Below are positions 51,821-62,844 of a DNA stretch of 64,000 bases, piece after piece. Both the position numbers and the translations under genes were made by a program. This DNA comes from Microbacterium halotolerans. GTDB lineage: Bacteria > Actinomycetota > Actinomycetes > Actinomycetales > Microbacteriaceae. A model generated the notes under the pieces. It was given only the letters and a program-made list of their open reading frames with translations, did no database searches and was not told where the DNA came from. The stretch is taken from contig NZ_KZ984051.1 of NCBI RefSeq assembly GCF_003569805.1, positions 807,779 to 871,778 of the forward strand, written 5' to 3'. How positions within the stretch are numbered: the stretch's first letter is position 1; the number at the start of each line of letters is the position of its first letter.

Positions 51821-53344
51821 GTGACAGTTCGCGGTAATCGACCGGTCGATGTCGGCGATGCCGGGCGTGCATCGATGCCGGACGCGTTCGACGTCGGGCT
51901 GCTGACGCCCGTGTCGGCGGGGCGCGATGCGGTCGTCTCCGACGGTGCGGTGCTGCATGCGATGGTCGAGGCGGAGGTCGCGCTGATGCGCGCGTACGCA
52001 GATGCCGTCGCGCAGACGGCGGCGCCGGAGGCGGATTCCGCCGGAGCCGAGCAGCTGCGCCGCGCGGCGAACGCCGCCGACGTGCTGCATGCCGTCACGA
52101 TCGACCCGGCGCAGCTAGCCCTCGATGCCGTCGCGGGCGGCAACCCGGTCATCCCGCTCGTCAAGGCGCTGCGCGCCGGAGCCCCGGATGACGTCAAGCC
52201 ATGGGTGCATCGGGGGGCCACCAGCCAGGACATCCTCGACACGGCACTGATGCTGGTCGCCCGTGACGCCGTCGAAGAGATGCTCGCCGCCCTCGACCGC
52301 ACAGTCGCGGCCCTGCGCGGCTTCGCCGCCCGCCATCGCGACGTCGTGGCGGCAGGCCGCACACTGACCCAGCACGCGGTGCCCACCACCATCGGCCTGC
52401 GCGCCGTGAACTGGCTCGCCGGCGTCGAGCGCGCGGCCGAGCGGCTGCGCGCGCTGCGGCTGCCCGCCCAGCTGGGCGGCGCGGGCGGCACGCTCGCCGC
52501 GACGGTGGAGTTCTTCCGCCGCAACGGGCGTGCCGATGACGCGGCGGTCTCGGATGAGTGCGATCCAGCGGACGCCGACCCGGGACATCCGGGTCGCGCT
52601 CTTCTCGATGGTTCGTACTCGGCTGGGCATGGTGCCGGAGCTGATCGCGACGCGATCGACGTCGCTCTCGCCGTGCGTGATGCCTATGCACGCGAGCTGC
52701 GGTTGGGCTCGCTGCTCGCCCCGTGGCACTCGAGCCGCTGGCCCGTCACCGAGCTGGGCGACGCGCTCGCCCAGGCTGTCGCCGCGCTCGGCAAGGTCGC
52801 CACCGACGTCGCCACCGCCAGCCGCACCGAGATCGCCGAGCTGGCAGAGCCGACGGGCGGCGGCTCGTCTGCCATGCCGCAGAAGCAGAACCCTGCCCGC
52901 TCCGTGCTCATCCGGTCCGCCGCCATCCGGGCGCCGCAGCTGGCCGCGACGCTGCACCTGGCCGCGGGCCTTGCCGCGGACGAGCGTCCCGACGGAGCAT
53001 GGCACGCTGAGTGGCCCGCGCTGCGCGACCTGCTGCGCGCCGCGCTCGGGGCCTCGTCGCAGGCCGCCGACCTGGTCGAGGGCCTGCGCGTGAACGAGGC
53101 CGGTGTCGCGCGCAACCTCGGCGCGACCGGCGGGCTCATCGTCTCCGAGCGCCTCAGCGCCGTGCTCGGCAAGGACCGCGCCGCCGAGATCGTGGCGGGC
53201 GTCGCCGCGGGCGGCGACCTCGCCGAGCTGGTCCGCGGCGCGGGGGAGGACCCCGCCGAGCTGCTCGACCCGGCGAACTACACGGGCCTGGCCGGCGAGT
53301 TCGTCGACCGGGCCGCAGACAACGAGAACAGGAGCACCGGATGA
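51821..53344 (+). CDS. pcaB: 3-carboxy-cis,cis-muconate cycloisomerase
   Basis: The 507-residue protein belongs to the fumarase/aspartase superfamily and converts 3-carboxymuconate to 4-carboxymuconolactone. Family marks are VHRGATSQDILDTALML and the C-terminal signature GGSSAMPQKQNPARSVL. A GGGAGG site precedes the GTG; the ATG at 51875 is a shorter alternative. Residues 242-278 form an extra Asp/Gly-rich segment in the loop after GGAGGTLAATVEFFRRNGRADD, which looks like a 111-bp insertion (see the separate feature). Without it the length would be 470, closer to the family. Whether the enzyme works with the insert is not clear. Confidence 0.9.
   Translation: MTVRGNRPVDVGDAGRASMPDAFDVGLLTPVSAGRDAVVSDGAVLHAMVEAEVALMRAYADAVAQTAAPEADSAGAEQLRRAANAADVLHAVTIDPAQLALDAVAGGNPVIPLVKALRAGAPDDVKPWVHRGATSQDILDTALMLVARDAVEEMLAALDRTVAALRGFAARHRDVVAAGRTLTQHAVPTTIGLRAVNWLAGVERAAERLRALRLPAQLGGAGGTLAATVEFFRRNGRADDAAVSDECDPADADPGHPGRALLDGSYSAGHGAGADRDAIDVALAVRDAYARELRLGSLLAPWHSSRWPVTELGDALAQAVAALGKVATDVATASRTEIAELAEPTGGGSSAMPQKQNPARSVLIRSAAIRAPQLAATLHLAAGLAADERPDGAWHAEWPALRDLLRAALGASSQAADLVEGLRVNEAGVARNLGATGGLIVSERLSAVLGKDRAAEIVAGVAAGGDLAELVRGAGEDPAELLDPANYTGLAGEFVDRAADNENRSTG
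52544..52654 (+). repeat. 111-bp in-frame insertion flanked by 6-bp direct repeats in pcaB
   Basis: GACGCG occurs at 52538-52543 and again at 52649-52654, exactly 111 bp (37 codons) apart and in the same reading frame. Deleting one repeat and the stretch between them restores a smooth family-like sequence, RADDAIDVALAVRDAYA. The inserted part holds an inverted repeat CGACCCGG/CCGGGTCG (52576-52596). It has no transposase and resembles a small mobile or slipped segment; origin unknown. Confidence 0.6.
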
Positions 53345-54114
53345 CCCTTCCCGACCTCGCCGTCACCGAGCCAGAAGGTGCCGACGGCGCACCCGTCGTC
53401 GTGCTGGGGCCGTCGCTCGGCACCGCGTCCGCCACCCTGTGGGAAGACGTTGTTCCCGCGCTGCAGCAGCGCTACCGGGTTGCGCTGTGGGATCTGCCAG
53501 GCCACGGCGCGTCGAAGCCGGCATCCGAGGCGTTCACCACCGAGGACATCGCCGACGCACTGGCGGAGCGGATCGCCGAGTTCGGTCCCGTGCTCTATGC
53601 CGGGGTCTCGCTCGGCGGCGCCGCTGGCCAGCAGCTCGTCATCCGGCACCCCGACCTGCTCGCGGCAGCGGCCATCGTGTGCTCCAGCCCGAAGTTCGGC
53701 ACCCCGCAAGGCTGGCACGAGCGCGCCGCCCAAGTGCGTTCGCAGGGCACGCCCGTGCTGGTGCGCGGGTCAGCCGAGCGCTGGTTCGCGCCGGGCTCGA
53801 TCGCCGCCCGCCCTGACATCACGGGGCGGCTCCTGCACAACCTCTCCGACACCGAAGACAACAGCTACGCGCTGTGCTGCGAGGCGCTCGCCGCGTTCGA
53901 TGTGCGCGAGGCGCTCAACGGTGCCACGACTCCGGTGCTGGCGATGTACGGCGAGCACGACGGCGTCTCGACGCGCGCCGACCAGGAGATCATCGCCGGC
54001 GCCGTGGCGAACGGCCGCGTGGTGCGGATCGACGGGGTCAGCCATCTCGCCCCGGCCGAGAAGCCCGCCGAGGTCGCGGGCGCACTGATCCGCTTCTTCG
54101 AGGAGAGCCGATGA
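53341..54114 (+). CDS. pcaD: 3-oxoadipate enol-lactonase
   Basis: The 257-residue alpha/beta hydrolase hydrolyses 3-oxoadipate enol-lactone to 3-oxoadipate. The nucleophile lies in GVSLGG, and WDLPGHGASKP, YGEHDGVS and IDGVSHLAPAEKP carry the oxyanion, Asp and His. It starts in the pcaB stop (ATGA) and its stop overlaps the pcaC start. PcaD and PcaC are separate here, unlike the fused PcaL of some actinobacteria. Confidence 0.93.
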   Translation: MTLPDLAVTEPEGADGAPVVVLGPSLGTASATLWEDVVPALQQRYRVALWDLPGHGASKPASEAFTTEDIADALAERIAEFGPVLYAGVSLGGAAGQQLVIRHPDLLAAAAIVCSSPKFGTPQGWHERAAQVRSQGTPVLVRGSAERWFAPGSIAARPDITGRLLHNLSDTEDNSYALCCEALAAFDVREALNGATTPVLAMYGEHDGVSTRADQEIIAGAVANGRVVRIDGVSHLAPAEKPAEVAGALIRFFEESR

Positions 54115-54533
54115 CAGAGAACGACGACCGCATCGGCGAGCGCCCTGCAGGCGGCGGGCTGGCCGACAGCGAGCGCTGGCACAACGGCATGTCCGTGCGC
54201 CGCGAGGTGCTCTCGGACGAGCACGTCGACCGTTCTATCCGGAATCAGACGGAGCTGACGGCGGACTTCCAGGACTTCATCACGCGGGTCGCGTGGGGGG
54301 ACGTCTGGCAGCGGCCAGGTCTGGGGCGCCGTGAGCGTTCGGTCGCCGTGATCACCTCGCTCATCGCACACGGCCATCACGAGGAGCTCGCCATGCACCT
54401 GCGCGCGGCGCTGCGCAACGGGCTCACCGTCGACGAGGTCAAGGAGATCATCCTGCAGTCGGCGATCTATTCCGGCGTGCCTGCGGCGAACACCGCGTTC
54501 CGCATCGCGAGCGAGGTCTACGAAGCCGACTGA
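54111..54533 (+). CDS. pcaC: 4-carboxymuconolactone decarboxylase
   Basis: The 140-residue protein matches the AhpD-like family and turns 4-carboxymuconolactone into 3-oxoadipate enol-lactone. Its RREVLSDEHVDRSIRNQTE, WGDVWQRPGLGRRERSVAVI and VKEIILQSAIYSGVPAANTAFRIA segments are those of PcaC. It starts inside the pcaD stop and is the last gene of pcaHGBDC; a 241-bp gap follows. Confidence 0.93.
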   Translation: MTENDDRIGERPAGGGLADSERWHNGMSVRREVLSDEHVDRSIRNQTELTADFQDFITRVAWGDVWQRPGLGRRERSVAVITSLIAHGHHEELAMHLRAALRNGLTVDEVKEIILQSAIYSGVPAANTAFRIASEVYEAD

Positions 54534-54676: not shown

Positions 54677-54721
54677 GCGCCCGCCCTCACCTCCTATCCA
54701 CCCCATTGGAGCGGGCGGGCG
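54677..54721 (+). terminator. GC-rich hairpin after the pca operon
   Basis: GCGCCCGCCC at 54677-54686 can pair with GGGCGGGCG at 54713-54721, with a short inner CTCC/GGAG stem. It lies between pcaC and the next gene in the same direction, 144 bp after the pcaC stop, and is a possible terminator. The rest of the 54534-54774 gap shows no clear gene. Confidence 0.45.
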
Positions 54722-54774
54722 TTCGCCCCGTGTTCATCCGTGGTTCACGTCGAGCCGATCGCCGGGTCATATCG

Positions 54775-57045
54775 ATGCCGCACGATGGCGAGGTGTCCAC
54801 TCGAACCTCCCTGCCTGCCCGACGTTCCCTTCTTGCGGTGACCGCGGTCGCCGTCCTCGGCTGCGGCCTCGTCGTCGCTGCGCCGGCCGCTGCCGCCGAC
54901 ACCGACATCCGGATCAACGAGGTCCAGTCCACGAGCGAGACCGACGCTCCCGACTTCGTAGAGCTGACGAACGTCGGTGCGGAGCCCATCGACATCTCCG
55001 GATGGATCCTGCGCGACGACAAAGACGATCACGGGGGCGCGGTCGCCGATGGCACAACCATCGCCCCTGGCGAGTTCTTCGTGATCGAGCCGAAGTCGTT
55101 CGAGGACGACTTCGGTCTCGGTAAGAACGACATGGCGCGCCTCTTCACCGCTGAAGAGCAGCTGGTCGACAGCTACGAGTGGACCGAGCATGCGGCGAGC
55201 GAGGGCAGGCTGCCCGACGGCACCGGCGACTTCGTCGAGACCGAGCCGACGCCCGGCGAGGCGAACGTCGTGCGCGAGGAGGAGCAGGACGAGCCGGACG
55301 AGCCGAGCGATGCGCCCGTCGTGATCAACGAGATCGAGTCGAACGGCGATGCCCGAGGTGACTGGGTGGAGCTGGCCAACACCGACGAGAACGACTCCGT
55401 CGACGTGTCCGGATGGACGCTGATCGACAACAAGGCGTCGCACGACCCGGTTGTGCTCGACGAGGGAACCGAGATCGAGTCAGGTGGATACCTGGGCGTT
55501 CTCACCGAGCCGAACTTCGGCCTCGGCGGCGGTGACAGCGTCACGGTGCGCGATGCCGAAGGCCTGCTCGTCGACGCGATCGAGTGGACGGAGCACGCGT
55601 CGACGACGCTGGCGCGCTGCCCCGACATGACGGGTGACTTCACCGAGTCCGGCGAGGGCACCTTCGAGCTCGCCAACAACTGCTCCGAGGTCGTTCAGCC
55701 GGAGATCGAGGTCTCGCCGTGGCCGTACAACGACGAGGTGACCGACGCGGTCGCGTCCGGCACCTGGGGCGACGACATGTCGGGCATCGACGTCGCGCCG
55801 GACGGCACGGTGTACGCGGTGAACAACGACGCGGGTGAGATCTCGCGCCTGGCCGGCGGCCCCGAGACCTACACGGTCGACGCGACCTGGCAGCCGAGCT
55901 ACCCGGACGGCACGGGCACCCCGGACGGCGAGGGCATCACGGTCGCAGACGACGCGATCTACCTCGCCACGGAGCGCAACAACGACGAAGGAGACGTGAG
56001 CCGTCCATCCGTCCTGCGCTTCGAGCTGGGCGAGCCCGGCGCCGTCGCGGCGACCGACGAATGGAACCTCGCGGAGCTCACGGGCGAGCTCGGCGCGAAC
56101 GGCGGCGCCGAGGCGATCGAGTGGATCTCCGACGCCGATGCGCTCGCGGCGGGGCTCGACTACGATCCGTCAGCATTCGGCGAGCACTTCGGCGGCATCT
56201 TCACGGTCGGCATCGAGCAGACCGGCAGCATCCACGTCGTCGTGCTCGAGGCGGATGGCGGCATCACCGAACTGCAGATGATCGCACCGAGCGAGGCCGT
56301 GGCCTCCGTGATGGGCCTGGACTGGCGCGCTGGCGGCAACCAGCTGTTCGCGCAGTGCGACGAGGAATGCGACAACCGCTCAGCGGAGTTCCGGATCGCG
56401 GACGGCGCCTTCGAGCGCATCGACGAGTACGCGGCGCCGGCCGGAATGAACCCGTCGTACACCAACGAGGGCGTCGCGATGACCTGGTGCGACCAGGCGG
56501 CGGAGACGGTGCCGACGGTGCTGTGGATGTCCGACTCCGCTCACGAGGGAGTCTCGCTGCGCACGTCGGTCGGAAGCGACTGCGCTCCGGACGGTGACGG
56601 AGACGGCGACGACGGCAACGACGACGAAGGCGGCGACGAGGACGGCGGTGACGCCGACAGCGAGCAGGACGGCGCGGTCAGCGTTCAGGCCTCGGCCGAG
56701 CGCGGCGAGACGATCAGCGTCACGGTCGTCGGTCGCGAAGGCGAAGAGGTCGCCGTCTGGCTGCACTCGGAGCCGCAGCGCCTGGTGACCGGCACGGTCG
56801 CCGCGGATGCGACGATCAAGGCGACGATCCCGGATGACGCGGAGCTCGGCGAGCACAGCATCGTCGTGCGTGCGGCCGACGGCACCACGATCGGCTCGGC
56901 GCCGATCGAGATCGTCGCGGCCTCCGACGCCGACGGCGAACTCGCCGTGACCGGAGCGGAGTTCTCGCCCGTGCTGCCCATCGCGGCCGCGGCGCTCCTG
57001 CTCCTCGGTGGCGCGCTGGTGCTGCGCCGCACGGTGCGCGCGTAA
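54775..57045 (+). CDS. LAxTG-anchored lamin-tail domain surface protein
   Basis: The 756-residue secreted protein has a signal peptide (LLAVTAVAVLGCGLVVAAPAAAA, ending near residue 41). Two lamin-tail domains follow, marked by IRINEVQSTSETDAPDFVEL and VVINEIESNGDARGDWVEL with a GW-xL-D core. A phytase/esterase-like beta-propeller region comes next (about residues 320-600), then a Gly/Asp linker. The C-terminus is LAVTG, a hydrophobic span and RRTVRA, a class E sortase signal. It should be displayed on the cell wall, where it may bind or cleave phosphate or carbohydrate compounds. I chose the ATG at 54775, since longer starts run into a hairpin. Confidence 0.85.
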   Translation: MPHDGEVSTRTSLPARRSLLAVTAVAVLGCGLVVAAPAAAADTDIRINEVQSTSETDAPDFVELTNVGAEPIDISGWILRDDKDDHGGAVADGTTIAPGEFFVIEPKSFEDDFGLGKNDMARLFTAEEQLVDSYEWTEHAASEGRLPDGTGDFVETEPTPGEANVVREEEQDEPDEPSDAPVVINEIESNGDARGDWVELANTDENDSVDVSGWTLIDNKASHDPVVLDEGTEIESGGYLGVLTEPNFGLGGGDSVTVRDAEGLLVDAIEWTEHASTTLARCPDMTGDFTESGEGTFELANNCSEVVQPEIEVSPWPYNDEVTDAVASGTWGDDMSGIDVAPDGTVYAVNNDAGEISRLAGGPETYTVDATWQPSYPDGTGTPDGEGITVADDAIYLATERNNDEGDVSRPSVLRFELGEPGAVAATDEWNLAELTGELGANGGAEAIEWISDADALAAGLDYDPSAFGEHFGGIFTVGIEQTGSIHVVVLEADGGITELQMIAPSEAVASVMGLDWRAGGNQLFAQCDEECDNRSAEFRIADGAFERIDEYAAPAGMNPSYTNEGVAMTWCDQAAETVPTVLWMSDSAHEGVSLRTSVGSDCAPDGDGDGDDGNDDEGGDEDGGDADSEQDGAVSVQASAERGETISVTVVGREGEEVAVWLHSEPQRLVTGTVAADATIKATIPDDAELGEHSIVVRAADGTTIGSAPIEIVAASDADGELAVTGAEFSPVLPIAAAALLLLGGALVLRRTVRA

Positions 57046-57060
57046 CGCGCGAATCAGATC

Positions 57061-57117
57061 CGCGGGTGCGGAGTCGTCGCAAGGGTTCGGGGGAACCGCG
57101 ACGACTCCGCACCCGCG
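57061..57117 (+). terminator. 20-bp perfect hairpin after the surface protein gene
   Basis: Arms at 57061-57080 and 57098-57117 are exact reverse complements, with a GGTTC/GAACC pair in the 17-nt loop. It lies 15 bases after the stop and 40 bases before the next gene, a strong candidate terminator. Confidence 0.65.
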
Positions 57118-57157
57118 CTGTGCACACGTGCTCCGGCGCGAGATAGGCTGACCGGAC

Positions 57158-58531
57158 ATGAGGATCACGCGACGCTCGCTGCTCGTCGGCGCCGGTTCCG
57201 GTGCCGTCGCGATGCTGCTCGCGTCCTGCGTGCCGGAAGGGTCGGACCCGGATCCCGTTCCGACAGAGCCGGACGTCACGCCGACGCCGTCGCAGGATGT
57301 GCCGGCCCCGGCCGGGTTCGTGCGCAGCGAGTGGACGACCGATCCGCTCTCGCGCGGTTCACGGGCCTTCGTGCCCGCCGGCTCGGGTGAGGCCGATAGA
57401 GCGGTCCTCGCGGAGCCGCTCCAGAATCGCGTGTTCTTCGCCGGCGACGTGCTGGGCAGCCCGATCGGCACGATGCAGGGAGCGTCGAGCGACGGCTTGC
57501 GTGCCGCGGCACTCGTCGCCGACACCGCATCGCCCGGCGAACGCGTGATGATCGTCGGAGCAGGCATCGCGGGCGCGAGGGCGGCGCGGTTCCTCGCCGA
57601 TGCCGGCCACGATGTCACCGTGATCGAGGGTCGCGACCGCACAGGCGGCCGCATCCGCACCGTCGATCTCGACGAGTGGCCCGTGGCGCCGCAGCTGGGC
57701 ACCTGGCTCACCGACTCCGATGCGGAGGCGCTGCACCAGAGCCTCGCCCAGCAGGGCATCGTCACCCGTGAGCTCGAGGGCGAGACGGCCAGAGGGCCGG
57801 AGGGCGCAGCCGACGTGCCGCCGCTAGATCCCGTGCGCGCGGCGATCGATCGGGCGGCGGAGCAGAGCGCCGATGCGGCGCTGAGCGATGCGCTCGCCGA
57901 TTCCGGGGCGGACGTCGAGAGCGCGGAGCTCGTCGCAGCGCTGGCCTACCTGACCGACAGGTCCGGCGCCGAGGCGGCCGAGCTGTCGTCTTGGTATCCG
58001 CCGACGATCCCGGATGAGCCGGTCGCGCTCTCCGGCGATCTCGGCGGCGTGGTCGACGAGGCAGTCGACGGCCTCACGGTCTCGCTCCAGACGACCGTGG
58101 TCGGCGTCGCCTACGATCGCGACGGCGTGAGCCTGCGCCTGTCGACGGGGGAGGCGCTCTCGGCCGATCGCGTCATCCTGACGACGCCGATCGGGGTGCT
58201 GCGCCACGGCTCGATCGAGTTCGAACCGGCGCTGCCGTTCCCGTACCGCACCGCAATCGATTCAGTCGGCTCCGGTGCCGTCGAGACCGTGTGGCTGAGG
58301 TTCGACGAACCGTTCTGGCAGGCGAGCGAGGCGCTGTGGCATGTCGTCGACGGCGAGGCCGCCGTGCGCACCTGGATCAACCTGCAGCCGTCGACGGGCG
58401 AGCCGATCCTCGTCGGGCTGATCGGCGGTGACGCCGCGCGTGCGTTCGCGGAGATGAGCGACGAAGAGGCCGCTCAGGCCGCCGTCGATTCTCTGGCCTT
58501 CTTCGCCGAGGCGCCTGCCGACGAGTCCTGA
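57158..58531 (+). CDS. circularly permuted flavin amine oxidase lipoprotein
   Basis: The 457-residue protein has a twin-arginine start (TRRSLLVG) and lipobox LASC (Cys24), so it is probably exported folded and lipid-anchored. Residues about 53-117 carry GFVRSEWTTDPLSRGSRAF, then NRVFFAGDVLGSPIGTMQGA and SDGLRAA, the block that ends normal amine oxidases. Only after it comes the FAD-binding VMIVGAGIAGARAARFLADAG (residues 130-150) with RTGGRI. The protein ends at PILVGLIGGDAARAFAEMSDEEA plus a short tail, exactly where the moved block would normally follow. This is a circular permutation relative to MAO/LSD1-type enzymes. Substrate unknown. Confidence 0.85.
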   Translation: MRITRRSLLVGAGSGAVAMLLASCVPEGSDPDPVPTEPDVTPTPSQDVPAPAGFVRSEWTTDPLSRGSRAFVPAGSGEADRAVLAEPLQNRVFFAGDVLGSPIGTMQGASSDGLRAAALVADTASPGERVMIVGAGIAGARAARFLADAGHDVTVIEGRDRTGGRIRTVDLDEWPVAPQLGTWLTDSDAEALHQSLAQQGIVTRELEGETARGPEGAADVPPLDPVRAAIDRAAEQSADAALSDALADSGADVESAELVAALAYLTDRSGAEAAELSSWYPPTIPDEPVALSGDLGGVVDEAVDGLTVSLQTTVVGVAYDRDGVSLRLSTGEALSADRVILTTPIGVLRHGSIEFEPALPFPYRTAIDSVGSGAVETVWLRFDEPFWQASEALWHVVDGEAAVRTWINLQPSTGEPILVGLIGGDAARAFAEMSDEEAAQAAVDSLAFFAEAPADES

Positions 58532-59202
58532 TCCGGGCTGGGTCGGCTTGCTCCATCCGGAGCGATCTGCTCATCCGGGACCGTCTGGTGCACTTTGCTG
58601 ATGCCGATCAGGCCGCTCGCGACCCCGGCGAACACCGCCAGCGCGATGAGGCTGGTGAGCAGGAACTCGCCGATGCCCGAGACCTGTCGCAGATCGAGGA
58701 AGTAGTACGGATACCAGCCGATGGAGGCGCCGCGCCACATGGTGAACAGCCCCCATGCGACGGGGAACAGCAGCACCCACGGGATCAGCCACCAGCGCGC
58801 TTCGGGGCGGCCGGGGCCGTAGATCCACGCCGCGATCGTGATCGCAGGCAGGCCGAAGTGCAGCACGACATCAGACCACGGCACCGTCATAGGTATGCCG
58901 CGCAGCCCCGCCTGCCACATCAGCAGGGCGAAGACGAGGCCTGCGGTGATCGTCCAGCTCAGCACGATGGTTCGGATGTCGGTGAGCCAGCGGGGATCGA
59001 CCGGATGACGCAGGGCGACGATGCCGGCCGTGATCGCGACGATGGTGAACGCGATGTTCGACTGGATCGTGAGATAGGCGAAGAAGTTCTGTCCGGCGAT
59101 CGTCTGCGAGCCCAGCCCCCAGAACAGGCGATGCACGAGCGCCGCGATGCAGGTCGCCGCCGCCGCGAACCTGACCGCGGCGAACCACGTGCGTGCCGCC
59201 AC
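58474..59202 (-). CDS. Pr6Pr-family membrane protein
   Basis: The 242-residue protein shows six hydrophobic segments and motifs of the Pr6Pr/FAR-17a group: NFFAYLTIQSNIAF, LRGIPMTVPWSDVVLHFGLP and GWYPYYFLDLRQVSG. The family role in bacteria is unknown. Its last 58 bp overlap the 3' end of the convergent flavin oxidase gene, and its C-terminal 35 residues are polar. It is a lone gene on this strand. Confidence 0.8.
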   Translation of the reverse strand: MAARTWFAAVRFAAAATCIAALVHRLFWGLGSQTIAGQNFFAYLTIQSNIAFTIVAITAGIVALRHPVDPRWLTDIRTIVLSWTITAGLVFALLMWQAGLRGIPMTVPWSDVVLHFGLPAITIAAWIYGPGRPEARWWLIPWVLLFPVAWGLFTMWRGASIGWYPYYFLDLRQVSGIGEFLLTSLIALAVFAGVASGLIGISKVHQTVPDEQIAPDGASRPSPDQDSSAGASAKKARESTAA

Positions 59203-59294: not shown

Positions 59295-60482
59295 TCAGCG
59301 CGTCAGGATGAGCGCGTCGCCCTGACCGCCTCCGCCGCAGAGCGCGACGGCGGCGGTGCCCCCGCCGCGGGCGGCCAGCTCGTGCGCCGCAGTGACGACC
59401 AGGCGCGCGCCGGATGCGCCGACCGGATGCCCGAGGGAGATGCCGCCGCCGTTCGGGTTGACGAGGTCGTCCGGCAGGCCGAGCTCGCGCTGCGACTGGG
59501 CGACCACGGCGCCGAAGGCCTCGTTGATCTCGATCAGATCGAGGTCGCTCGCGGACAGTCCCTGTCGCTCGAGCGCGGCTGCGGTGGCCCGGGCCGGCTG
59601 GGCCTGGAGCGAGTTGTCCGGGCCGGCGACCTGACCATAGGCCCCGACTGTGGCGAGCACGTTCCAGCCCTGTGCGTCGGCGTTCGTCCGTGTGGTCAGG
59701 GCGACGGCCGCCGCACCGTCGGAGATCTGCGAGGAGTTGCCCGCGGTGAGCGTGCCGCCCTCGGCGAAGGCGGGGCGCAGGCCGGAGAGCGTCTCCAGCG
59801 TCGTGCCCGGCCGGATCCCCTCATCCTGGGAGACGACGATCGGGCCGCCTTTTCGCTGCGCGATCTCGACCGGTGCGATCTCGGCGTCGAAGCGCCCTGA
59901 CGTCGTCGCCGCGGCCGCGCGCTCGTGCGACCGGACTGCGACCGCGTCCTGATCGCCGCGGGTGATGCCGAAGCGCTCGTTGTGCCGCTCGGTCGCCAGG
60001 CCCATCACCTGGTCGTCGTAGGGATCGTGAAGAGCGTCGTGCAGCAGGTGGTCGAGAACTTCGACCGAGCCGTACGCGTAGCCGCTGCGGGAGTGCGGCA
60101 GCAGGTGCGGGGCGTTCGTCATCGACTCCATGCCGCCTGCGACCACCGTCGTCGCGTCGCCGAGACGGATCATCCTGGTCGCGTCGATGATCGCCGACAG
60201 GCCGGAGAGGCAGACCTTGTTGACTCCCTGGACGGGCACGTCCCAGCCGAGCCCTGCGCCGATGGACGCCTGTCTGGTCGGGTTCTGACCGGCACCGGCT
60301 GGCAGGACCTGCCCCATCAGCACGGCGTCCACTGCCTCGGCGGTGATCCCGCCGCGCGCGAGCGCACCGGCGATCGCCGCCGATCCGAGCGCCGTCGACG
60401 ACAGCGAGGCGAGCGCTCCGCGGAAGCGGCCCTGTGCGGTGCGTGCGGCCGCGACGAGCACGACGTCGGCTCCGGATGTCAT
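59295..60482 (-). CDS. acetyl-CoA acetyltransferase / 3-oxoacyl-CoA thiolase
   Basis: The 395-residue thiolase has its nucleophile in [11 protein letters not shown], the acid/base His in [17 protein letters not shown] and the second Cys in [12 protein letters not shown]. The NKVC and HPVGASG patterns resemble acetoacetyl-CoA thiolases more than typical PcaF proteins. It follows scoAB in one operon, so it cleaves acetoacetyl-CoA, 3-oxoadipyl-CoA or both. The ATG at 60482 has an AAGAGAGGA site; a GTG two codons upstream is an alternative. Confidence 0.88.
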
Positions 60483-60543
60483 CAGCACATTCCTCTCTTG
60501 TGCGCGCAGTGCGCATCCCAGCGGACCGGTCGTCCGGCGCCGT

Positions 60544-61185
60544 TCACGATTCCACCGCCACGATCAGCGGCGGTTCTGTCGCGGCGGCGACCTCTTCCAC
60601 TGTGACACCCGGAGCGAGCTCGCGCAGCACCAGGCCATCGGCGGTGACGTCGATCACGGCGAGATCGGTGATGATCCGGTCGACCACACCGAGGCCGGTC
60701 AGCGGCAGCGAGCAGTCGTCCACGATCTTCGCCGAGCCGTCCTTGGCGACGTGGGTCATCAGCACGATCACCCGGCCCGCGCCATAGACGAGATCCATCC
60801 CGCCGCCCGGGCCCTTGACCATCTTGCCCGGGATCATCCAGTTGGCGAGGTCTCCTCGCGCCGACACCTGCATCGCGCCGAGGATCGCGGCGTCGATCTT
60901 TCCCGCCCTGATCATCGCGAAGCTCGTCGCCGAGTCGAAGAACGACGTGCCTGGCAGCGTCGTGACGGTCTCCTTGCCGGCGTTGATCAGATCCGGATCG
61001 ACGTTCTCCTCCGTCGGGTACGGCCCGACGCCCAAGATGCCGTTCTCCGACTGGAGCACGACGGTCACGTCATCCGCAACGTAGTTGGGAACGAGTGTCG
61101 GCAGGCCGATGCCGAGGTTCACGTACGAGCCGTCGGTGAGCTCGCGAGCTGCGCGGGCGGCCATCTCGTCGCGTGTCAGCGCCAT
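60544..61185 (-). CDS. scoB: 3-oxoacid CoA-transferase subunit B
   Basis: The 213-residue subunit has the catalytic Glu in [32 protein letters not shown] at the start and [34 protein letters not shown] in the middle, all of the SCOT/3-oxoacid CoA-transferase type. It may move CoA from succinyl-CoA to 3-oxoadipate or acetoacetate. The ATG at 61185 has a GGGGG run eight bases upstream; an ATG at 61191 overlaps the scoA stop. Gene order is scoA-scoB-thiolase. Confidence 0.9.
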
Positions 61186-61187
61186 GA

Positions 61188-61946
61188 TCATGCCCCCTCG
61201 GTGCGAACGGTGCGGCGTTCGATGCGCTTCTCGGTGTCGGGGCCGACCTCGATCATCCGGTGCACGTAGACGCCGGGCAGGTGGATACGGTCGGGGTCGA
61301 GTTCGCCGGGTTCGACGAGTTCCTCGACTTGCGCGATGCAGACGCGGCCGGCCATGGCGGCAAGCGGGTTGAAGTTGCGGGCGGCCTTGTTGAAGACGAG
61401 GTTGCCGTGTCGGTCGCCGCGTAGGGCGTGCACGAGTGCGAAGTCGGTGACGATCGCCTCTTCGAGCACGTAATCGCCGTCGCCGAAGGCGCGGACCTCC
61501 TTCTCCGGTGAGGCGACGGCGACCCCACCGCTGCCGTCGTAGCGGCGGGGGAGTCCGCCTGTGGCGACCTGTGTGCCGAGCCCGGTCTTGGTGAAGAACG
61601 CCGCGATGCCCGCGCCGCCCGCGCGCAGCTTCTCGGCGAGGGTGCCCTGCGGTGTCAGCTCGAGCTCGAGTTCGCCGGAGAGGAACTGTCGCTCGAACTC
61701 CTTGTTCTCGCCGACGTACGAGGCGGTCACCTTCCGGATGCGCCCGGCGCCGAGAAGGATGCCGAGCCCCCAGTCGTCGACGCCGCAGTTGTTCGAAGCG
61801 ACTGCGAGGTCGGATGTCCCCTGCGCGTAGAGCGCCTCGATCAGCGCCGTCGGGTTGCCGGAGAGGCCGAACCCTCCGACGGCGAGGCTGGCGCCGTCCG
61901 GGATGTCGGCAACGGCCTCTGCGGCCGAGCCCCACGTCTTGTCCAT
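61188..61946 (-). CDS. scoA: 3-oxoacid CoA-transferase subunit A
   Basis: The 252-residue subunit has [52 protein letters not shown] and [21 protein letters not shown], markers of the SCOT alpha chain. In actinobacterial pca clusters this pair is usually taken to activate 3-oxoadipate, yet its closest visible pattern is the acetoacetate enzyme. It is divergent from the IclR regulator at 62062, with a palindrome between them. Confidence 0.9.
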
Positions 61947-62041
61947 CGCGGTGTCACTCCGTTGTGTTCGGCGGTCGGGTCACCACAAGTGTGCGACGCC
62001 CTTCGGCAGCACGTCCAGAATCGATTGCATGGCGGATGATG

Positions 62042-62067
62042 TGGACGATAGTGTCCATAATATGGAC
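62042..62067. promoter_or_regulatory. triple TGGAC/GTCCA operator at the scoA/IclR promoter
   Basis: TGGAC (62042-62046), GTCCA (62053-62057) and TGGAC (62063-62067) alternate, and GTCCATAATATGGAC (62053-62067) is a perfect palindrome. A CATAAT or TATTAT hexamer lies in its centre. The pattern fits an IclR-type operator controlling scoA and the regulator gene itself. Confidence 0.55.
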
Positions 62068-62844
62068 GTTGACTCGCCGCGGGGCGCGCAGTCGGTGGCG
62101 CGCGCGGCGCTGCTGCTGCGACTCGTGACGGCGCAGGGAGAGCGCGGCGGGGCGCGCACCGCCGACCTGGTCGCGGAGTCCGGGCTGTCCAGGCCGACGG
62201 TGCATCGCCTGCTCACGGCGCTGAAGTTCGAGGCGCTGCTCGACCAGGACCAGGCGACCGGCCGCTGGTTCCCCGGACCGGAGCTGTTCCTGATGGGTTC
62301 GGTCGCGGCCGAGCGCTACGACGTCACCGAACGCGCTCGCGACATCGTGCACTCGCTGGCGGCGACCACGGGAGAGAGCGCGTTCCTCTCGGTTCGACGC
62401 GGCGACGAGACCGTCTGCCTCGTGCACGAGGACGGTGCCTTCCCCATCCGATCGCACGTGCTGAGCGAGGGCGTGCGCTTCCCGCTCGGCGTCGCATCGG
62501 CGGGGATCGTGATCCTCGCCCTGCTGCCGGAGGAGGAGGCGGAGGCGTATCTCGCCGCGCACGACCTCGTGCCGCGCTGGGGCGAGGAGCACGCCGCCAG
62601 GCGTCTGCGCGAGCGCCTCGCCGAGACGCGGGACCGCGGCTTCTCGGTCAATCCGGGGCTCATCGTCGAGGGGAGCTGGGGTATGGGCGCCGCCGTGCTC
62701 TCCCGTGCAGGCCGGCCCGAGTGGGCGCTGAGCATCACCGGCGTCGAGTTCCGCTTCGGCGAGGACCGCCGGGACAGGCTCGGCCGCGCGCTGCTCGGGC
62801 ATGCGCACGAGCTGAGTCAGCGGATGCAGCGCAGAGCGGGCTGA
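62062..62844 (+). CDS. IclR-family transcriptional regulator (scoAB/thiolase region)
   Basis: The 260-residue regulator has an IclR helix-turn-helix (SVARAALLLRLVTAQ, then LSRPTVHRLLTALKFEALL) and an effector domain with FPLGVASAGIVILALLP and RDRGFSVNPGLIVEGSWGMGAAVLSRAG. I start at the ATG at 62062 because family members begin about ten residues before the helix-turn-helix; the ATG at 62029 in the same frame is an alternative. The palindrome overlaps its start. It likely controls the divergent scoAB-thiolase operon, perhaps with 3-oxoadipate or protocatechuate as signal. Confidence 0.88.
   Translation: MDVDSPRGAQSVARAALLLRLVTAQGERGGARTADLVAESGLSRPTVHRLLTALKFEALLDQDQATGRWFPGPELFLMGSVAAERYDVTERARDIVHSLAATTGESAFLSVRRGDETVCLVHEDGAFPIRSHVLSEGVRFPLGVASAGIVILALLPEEEAEAYLAAHDLVPRWGEEHAARRLRERLAETRDRGFSVNPGLIVEGSWGMGAAVLSRAGRPEWALSITGVEFRFGEDRRDRLGRALLGHAHELSQRMQRRAG

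Follow-up and report, generated by a model that had tools for sequence, protein, structure and literature searches.

A predicted exported lipoprotein with a circularly permuted flavin amine oxidase fold in Microbacterium halotolerans

A stretch of 64,000 nucleotides from Microbacterium halotolerans, referred to here as the window, encodes a protein in which, as alignments with its standard relatives show, the flavin amine oxidase fold is circularly permuted. The gene (57158..58531, + strand, ATG start) specifies 457 amino acids, beginning with a twin-arginine signal and lipobox recognised by their sequence pattern (residues 1–24, 57158..57229, +; R5-R6 and LASC ending in C24). A displaced block follows (residues 48–123, 57299..57526, +), which corresponds to the C-terminal FAD block of standard amine oxidases, and then the core (residues 124–449, 57527..58504, +), comprising the Rossmann FAD-binding and substrate parts that make up the N-terminal portion of standard proteins. 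All motifs quoted in the earlier note on this DNA are found in the 457-residue frame and in the order given there: TTDPLSRGSRAF begins at residue 60, NRVFFAGDVLGSPIG at residue 90 and SDGLRAA at residue 111, ahead of the dinucleotide-binding motif GAGIAG (residues 134–139, 57557..57574, +; GAGIAGARAARF from residue 134). Pfam family PF01593 matches the protein in three stretches with an E-value of 7e-49 and 167.7 bits against a curated cut-off of 19.8. Within an alignment of 64 sequences G134, A135, G136 and G139 are invariant, as are the GGR motif and the other nucleotide-binding residues. The genome holds a single permuted gene, the sole other match being a nucleotide-binding motif (query 126–167, E 3.3e-4), and purifying selection is indicated by a dN/dS ratio of 0.11 (dN 0.024, dS 0.215) in the one pair compared, the window gene and a 95 %-identical homologue.

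The linear order expected in PF01593, with the Rossmann part first and the FAD block carrying W..DP and FAGE last, is not the order of this protein. A phmmer comparison with human LSD2 aligns query residues 128–166, 295–446 and 45–121 in that order along the LSD2 chain (residues 337–375, 533–691 and 697–774, respectively; whole-sequence E ~3e-29), and in tblastn against the standard cyanobacterial homologue L003 query 125–446 comes first and 48–117 second. From these alignments it follows that the early block is the amine oxidase C-terminal block and that its position before the FAD-binding motif, as claimed earlier, represents a circular permutation: both parts are homologous to the standard protein, the old termini are joined and the chain is reopened elsewhere. 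The concern that the early block might be an unrelated segment proved unfounded, as it aligns to the LSD2 C-terminus and to the end block of the standard proteins. Also correct was the statement that the protein stops where the end block would normally follow, its C-terminus lying 8 residues past the end of the core profile. Of 28 distinct standard proteins, 18 have 3–5 residues between core and block (15 of them 4), the others having gaps of −1, 6, 7, 7 and 14 to 60. Outside the Microbacteriaceae branch, 22 of 25 permuted proteins end 1–5 residues past the core, with exceptions at 10, 11 and 22 residues, the last being the contig fragment L148, and those of the Microbacteriaceae branch end 2 to 34 residues past it. 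Of 95 distinct permuted proteins, 71 show by profile no residue between block and core, and the remaining ones have −3 to 3. Because of these gap lengths we place the cut in a short natural joint of the standard fold, with the old ends directly joined; the first Rossmann strand directly follows the original C-terminal helix, and the new opening precedes the W..DP strand. This change of segment order in a heavily studied flavoenzyme fold is a variant of a known fold family.

An AlphaFold2 model built from 64 sequences reached a mean pLDDT of 91.8 and a pTM of 0.87, with residues 51–130 at 92–98. VIA placed model residues 126–453 on LSD1 residues 277–738 (Z 24.5, 2.6 Å, 318 residues, 24 % identity), and the best Foldseek matches were LSD2, LSD1, polyamine oxidase and monoamine oxidase. 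Since both programs align sequentially, the superposition covers the core up to the cut and leaves the block out; the structure prediction and superposition suggested earlier as a check bear out the core. The modelled block runs strand, strand, helix, strand, long helix, which we take to be the order at the end of standard amine oxidases. Taken with the conserved family described below, the confident model and the fit of its core to LSD1 support the permuted fold that had been put forward as an inference.

A search for other proteins with the same motif order, likewise suggested earlier, returned 140 permuted proteins. They are part of the 173 frames in the collected loci that match both the block and the core profile, classified as 140 permuted, 33 standard and none ambiguous, proportions that are not a prevalence because duplicate loci are included and loci were chosen selectively. 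Across the genus sample 84 of 198 genomes gave a match at 1e-20, at least 79 of them permuted by table count, with G011, G118, G175 and G191 (standard-type matches only) and G103 (junction not spanned) set aside; for the family sample the figures are 149 of 398 genomes and at least 134 permuted by table count, with 15 genomes set aside that had weak, standard-type or fragment matches only. Both counts are lower bounds because scoring was restricted to the few best candidates of each genome. In the order sample of 396, permuted proteins occur in four genomes from outside the family (G633, G700, G701 and G775, groups f15 and f16). The junction-spanning profile A2, built from 30 sequences, yields one contiguous match to a permuted protein and separate halves with a standard one; at E ≤ 6e-34 it matched contiguously in 28 of the 394 class-sample genomes, one match being cut by a contig end, and in 8 of 296 genomes of the phylum sample. 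These two samples add f35, f37, f43, f48, f51, f54, f72, f80 and f82 to f1, f15 and f16, bringing permuted homologues to 12 family-level groups of Actinomycetota. A scan of genome contigs found two permuted relatives and one standard relative, and a plasmid search at E 1e-20 gave no match. By sequence comparison the permuted family is widespread and conserved. That the order is an artefact, arising from a misassembly that put two genes together or from an early block with only a likeness to the C-terminal motif, has a practically negligible probability, and nothing was found in its favour. The assembly error or gene fusion that had been feared is excluded because colinear permuted homologues occur in many independent assemblies across the 12 family-level groups, and a chance resemblance is countered by the 33 standard proteins, in which the block profile matches on the C-terminal side of the core. 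The record name of locus L001, Frigoribacterium sp. JB110 (95 % identical), may not fit; it shares a contig with G026, from the genus of the window.

The catalytic residues give a different picture of the Microbacteriaceae branch. Query position 377, equated with the catalytic lysine through the LSD2 alignment, is T377 in the window protein (58286..58288, +), and at the cage tyrosine position it has R69 (57362..57364, +); we take this position to be that of Y761 in LSD1, also in view of PMC3184146. Lys is found at position 377 in 26 of the 27 standard proteins and, outside the branch, in 22 of 24 permuted ones (Arg in the other two), compared with 8 of the 70 branch proteins, where this position is occupied by T 35, V 8, K 8, L 6, R 4, S 4, A 3, N 1 and Q 1. 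Similarly, position 69 is Tyr in 25/27 standard, 20/24 other permuted and 2/70 branch proteins, the four non-Tyr cases among the other permuted proteins being those that lack an evident export signal and carry Trp. The Trp at query 184 is present in 26/27 standard, 24/24 other permuted and 11/70 branch proteins. A tree of 87 rows requires 8 changes of the lysine state and 5 of the tyrosine state. R56 and R338 (both 70/70) and W379 (91 %) are fixed anew in the branch, and their conservation makes them candidates for a new function. Some enzymes of the amine oxidase fold function without the lysine. According to PMC3184146, K661A abolishes demethylation by LSD1 and K300M makes flavin reduction in maize PAO 1400-fold slower, and PMC10444793 uses K661Q together with A539E as a catalytically inactive LSD1. 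The earlier designation as a flavin amine oxidase therefore holds for the fold, whereas amine oxidation is doubtful because the window protein has neither the lysine nor the cage tyrosine of flavin amine oxidases. Classical amine oxidation by this protein appears unlikely, and the main branch is, as far as the alignment tells, mostly without the residues that amine oxidases use in catalysis; 'amine oxidase' is here the name of a fold and should not be read as an activity.

The twin-arginine signal and lipobox noted earlier were confirmed by a pattern test (twin arginine, lipobox 10–30 residues on) rather than by a trained predictor; it finds the Tat lipoprotein features of twin arginine, hydrophobic stretch and lipobox cysteine in the window protein, and the twin arginine with lipobox in all 70 distinct proteins of the Microbacteriaceae branch versus 11 of 25 other permuted ones. 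Ten of the remaining 14 have a twin-arginine pattern without lipobox, and four (L060, L061, L062 and L064) have no evident signal by eye. These four retain the lysine, have Trp at the cage tyrosine position and are apparently cytoplasmic permuted amine oxidases. Because the standard-order relative L063 also has, by eye, a twin arginine and a lipobox, export may predate the permutation.

Convergent to the permuted gene lies a gene for a Pr6Pr family membrane protein (58474..59202, − strand), the product of which matches NF038065 with 91.7 bits against a cut-off of 30, as do 23 of 23 aligned partners. The two 3′ ends overlap by 58 bases in the window and overlap in many other loci, the spacing of the pair ranging from overlap up to a 139-base gap. 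A convergent Pr6Pr gene is present in 103 of 104 permuted branch loci, duplicates included; the exception, L008, has it 5.2 kb off in its wider locus L067. Of these 103 genes 99 are less than 200 bases away, the others being those of L067, L059 (~1.1 kb), L057 and its duplicate L101. At L057 (1351–3849, −) the Pr6Pr frame is open antisense through the permuted gene, and L101 is alike. No Pr6Pr neighbour was found in 36 loci of other permuted groups, some of which have flanks of less than 1 kb. As Pr6Pr is present in 168 of 199 family genomes and single-copy in that of the window, it is the adjacency and not the presence that is informative, and since the lysine persists in 8 of 70 branch proteins, its loss is no condition for the pairing. 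With a coarse gene picker the next commonest neighbour cluster occurred in 7 of 42 regions versus 28 of 42 for Pr6Pr, and in the other permuted groups the most-shared neighbour was present at 3 of 24 loci, with none widely shared. Overlapping 3′ ends alone could keep two unrelated genes together, the variation in spacing notwithstanding; on this conserved adjacency Pr6Pr is a probable functional partner of the permuted protein.

The Pr6Pr model (pLDDT 85.8) was placed by VIA on TMEM164 with a Z of 12.5 over 184 residues (next row 8.9), which by the warning of the tool is about the level that chance helical bundles reach. Foldseek gave no match to the Pr6Pr model below E 0.08, a profile search of solved structures returned one match at E 1.4 that we took as chance, and the likeness to TMEM164 found no support from sequence profiles. 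T45 and H115 are invariant in 23 of 23 Pr6Pr partners. TMEM164 moves arachidonate between phospholipids, as described in PMC10474074; from the modelled likeness, a lipid-related role of the pair is only a lead.

How often the permutation arose is judged differently by two kinds of evidence, the common cut point across permuted groups favouring one origin and the trees leaning to several (up to four changes). On the 87-row tree the permuted/standard label needs 4 changes, and a single clade is not rejected (p-AU 0.405); on a 42-row tree 0 of 200 bootstrap trees had a single change, the AU test for a single clade gave p 0.16, and placing the main group together with the f43, f48, f51 and f54 groups was not rejected either (p 0.259). 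Since the trees nest the branch among the lysine-keeping permuted proteins L120, L121, L113, L114 and L096, the permutation probably came before the lysine loss and the Pr6Pr pairing. A fused duplicate intermediate, with two block matches and a core in one frame, was found in none of the loci examined.

The reading we consider probable, with some reserve, joins these observations in a permuted, Tat-exported and lipid-anchored FAD redox protein that has no classical amine oxidation and is paired with Pr6Pr. A Tat-exported ancestor would have been duplicated and fused, and the permuted chain would have remained once the first core and the second block were lost. The protein would take up FAD and fold in the cytoplasm, be exported folded via Tat and be held by a lipid anchor through C24 at the outer face of the membrane. 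Less certain is the step by which the Microbacteriaceae branch would still be an FAD redox protein with classical amine oxidation gone, the loss of chemistry resting on the disappearance of the lysine that holds water at flavin N5 and of the cage tyrosine, with the nucleotide-binding residues kept. Similarly less certain is joint work with the tail-to-tail encoded Pr6Pr membrane protein on a membrane-associated substrate or electron acceptor.

Were the branch a pseudoenzyme, that is a permuted lipoprotein whose binding of FAD or some other ligand serves sensing or scaffolding instead of catalysis, the variability of position 377, the cage tyrosine in only two of the 70 proteins and the eight changes of the lysine state, as though constraint were gone, would all be expected; the invariant nucleotide-binding residues and the newly fixed R56 and R338, which suggest an active new site, speak for the opposite, and we hold this alternative to be unlikely. 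An ordinary exported amine oxidase acting on an extracellular amine, in which permutation and lysine replacement are tolerated, could draw on the strong PF01593 match and on the permuted relatives outside the branch with their Lys (22/24) or Arg (2/24), but has to contend with T377 and R69 in the window protein and with the severe impairment of the LSD1 and PAO lysine mutants reported in PMC3184146, so that it seems improbable. A bolder reading, by which the large permuted family of Actinomycetota arose as the fold was reopened more than once at the same short joint, and one permuted lineage in Microbacteriaceae then lost its amine oxidase chemistry and became the lipid-anchored redox partner of Pr6Pr as a TMEM164-like membrane lipid enzyme, is speculative and in our view rather improbable.

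Compared with the PF01593 proteins (LSD1/LSD2, polyamine oxidases and MAO), among which LSD2 and LSD1 are its best solved relatives, the window protein shares the core fold and the GAG..G and GGR motifs, and differs by its permuted segments, by T377 and R69, and by a Tat lipoprotein signal fused to the former C-terminal block. L063 (G619, family f16) resembles it in Tat lipoprotein pattern, domain content and related sequence, but has the standard order and keeps the lysine. The lysine-keeping permuted relatives (L120/L121, L113/L114, L096–L099, L115–L119, L122/L123 and L060–L064) have the same permuted order and cut point; unlike the branch, they have no Pr6Pr neighbour in the 36 loci, and the lipobox in only 11 of 25 proteins. 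As standard proteins, permuted proteins with the lysine and permuted proteins without it form a graded series, it becomes testable in which order the steps of a functional change took place. A natural permutation kept in many bacterial families further offers a direct way into the purpose of chain order, be it in folding, in Tat export with bound FAD or in placing the membrane anchor. Profile annotation yields only an Amino_oxidase domain, which for the Microbacteriaceae branch is probably misleading as to activity. Within the open-licence literature, where absence is weak evidence, we found no paper on natural circular permutation in the flavin amine oxidase superfamily and none on Pr6Pr.

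The gene upstream of the permuted one (54706–57045, +) codes for a surface protein in which two lamin tail domains (PF00932) are combined with an LAVTG sortase signal (NF058582), and an inverted repeat with two 17-base arms, terminator-like in appearance, lies between the two genes at 57064–57114. Within 57140–57160 a minus-10-like TAGGCT ends 8 bases before the ATG and a Shine-Dalgarno sequence is not evident by eye, so the mRNA of the permuted gene may be leaderless. Genes of the beta-ketoadipate (protocatechuate) pathway stand on both sides, with pcaB-like, pcaD and pcaC before the permuted gene (51821–54533, +) and thiolase and pcaJ/pcaI-type CoA-transferase genes after it (59295–61946, −), next to an IclR-type regulator gene at 61855–62844. 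The pcaB-like frame is split at ~52505–52637 (+), where about 45 matchless residues separate protein residues 37–228 from 273–499, as paired compensating frameshifts or an insertion would give.
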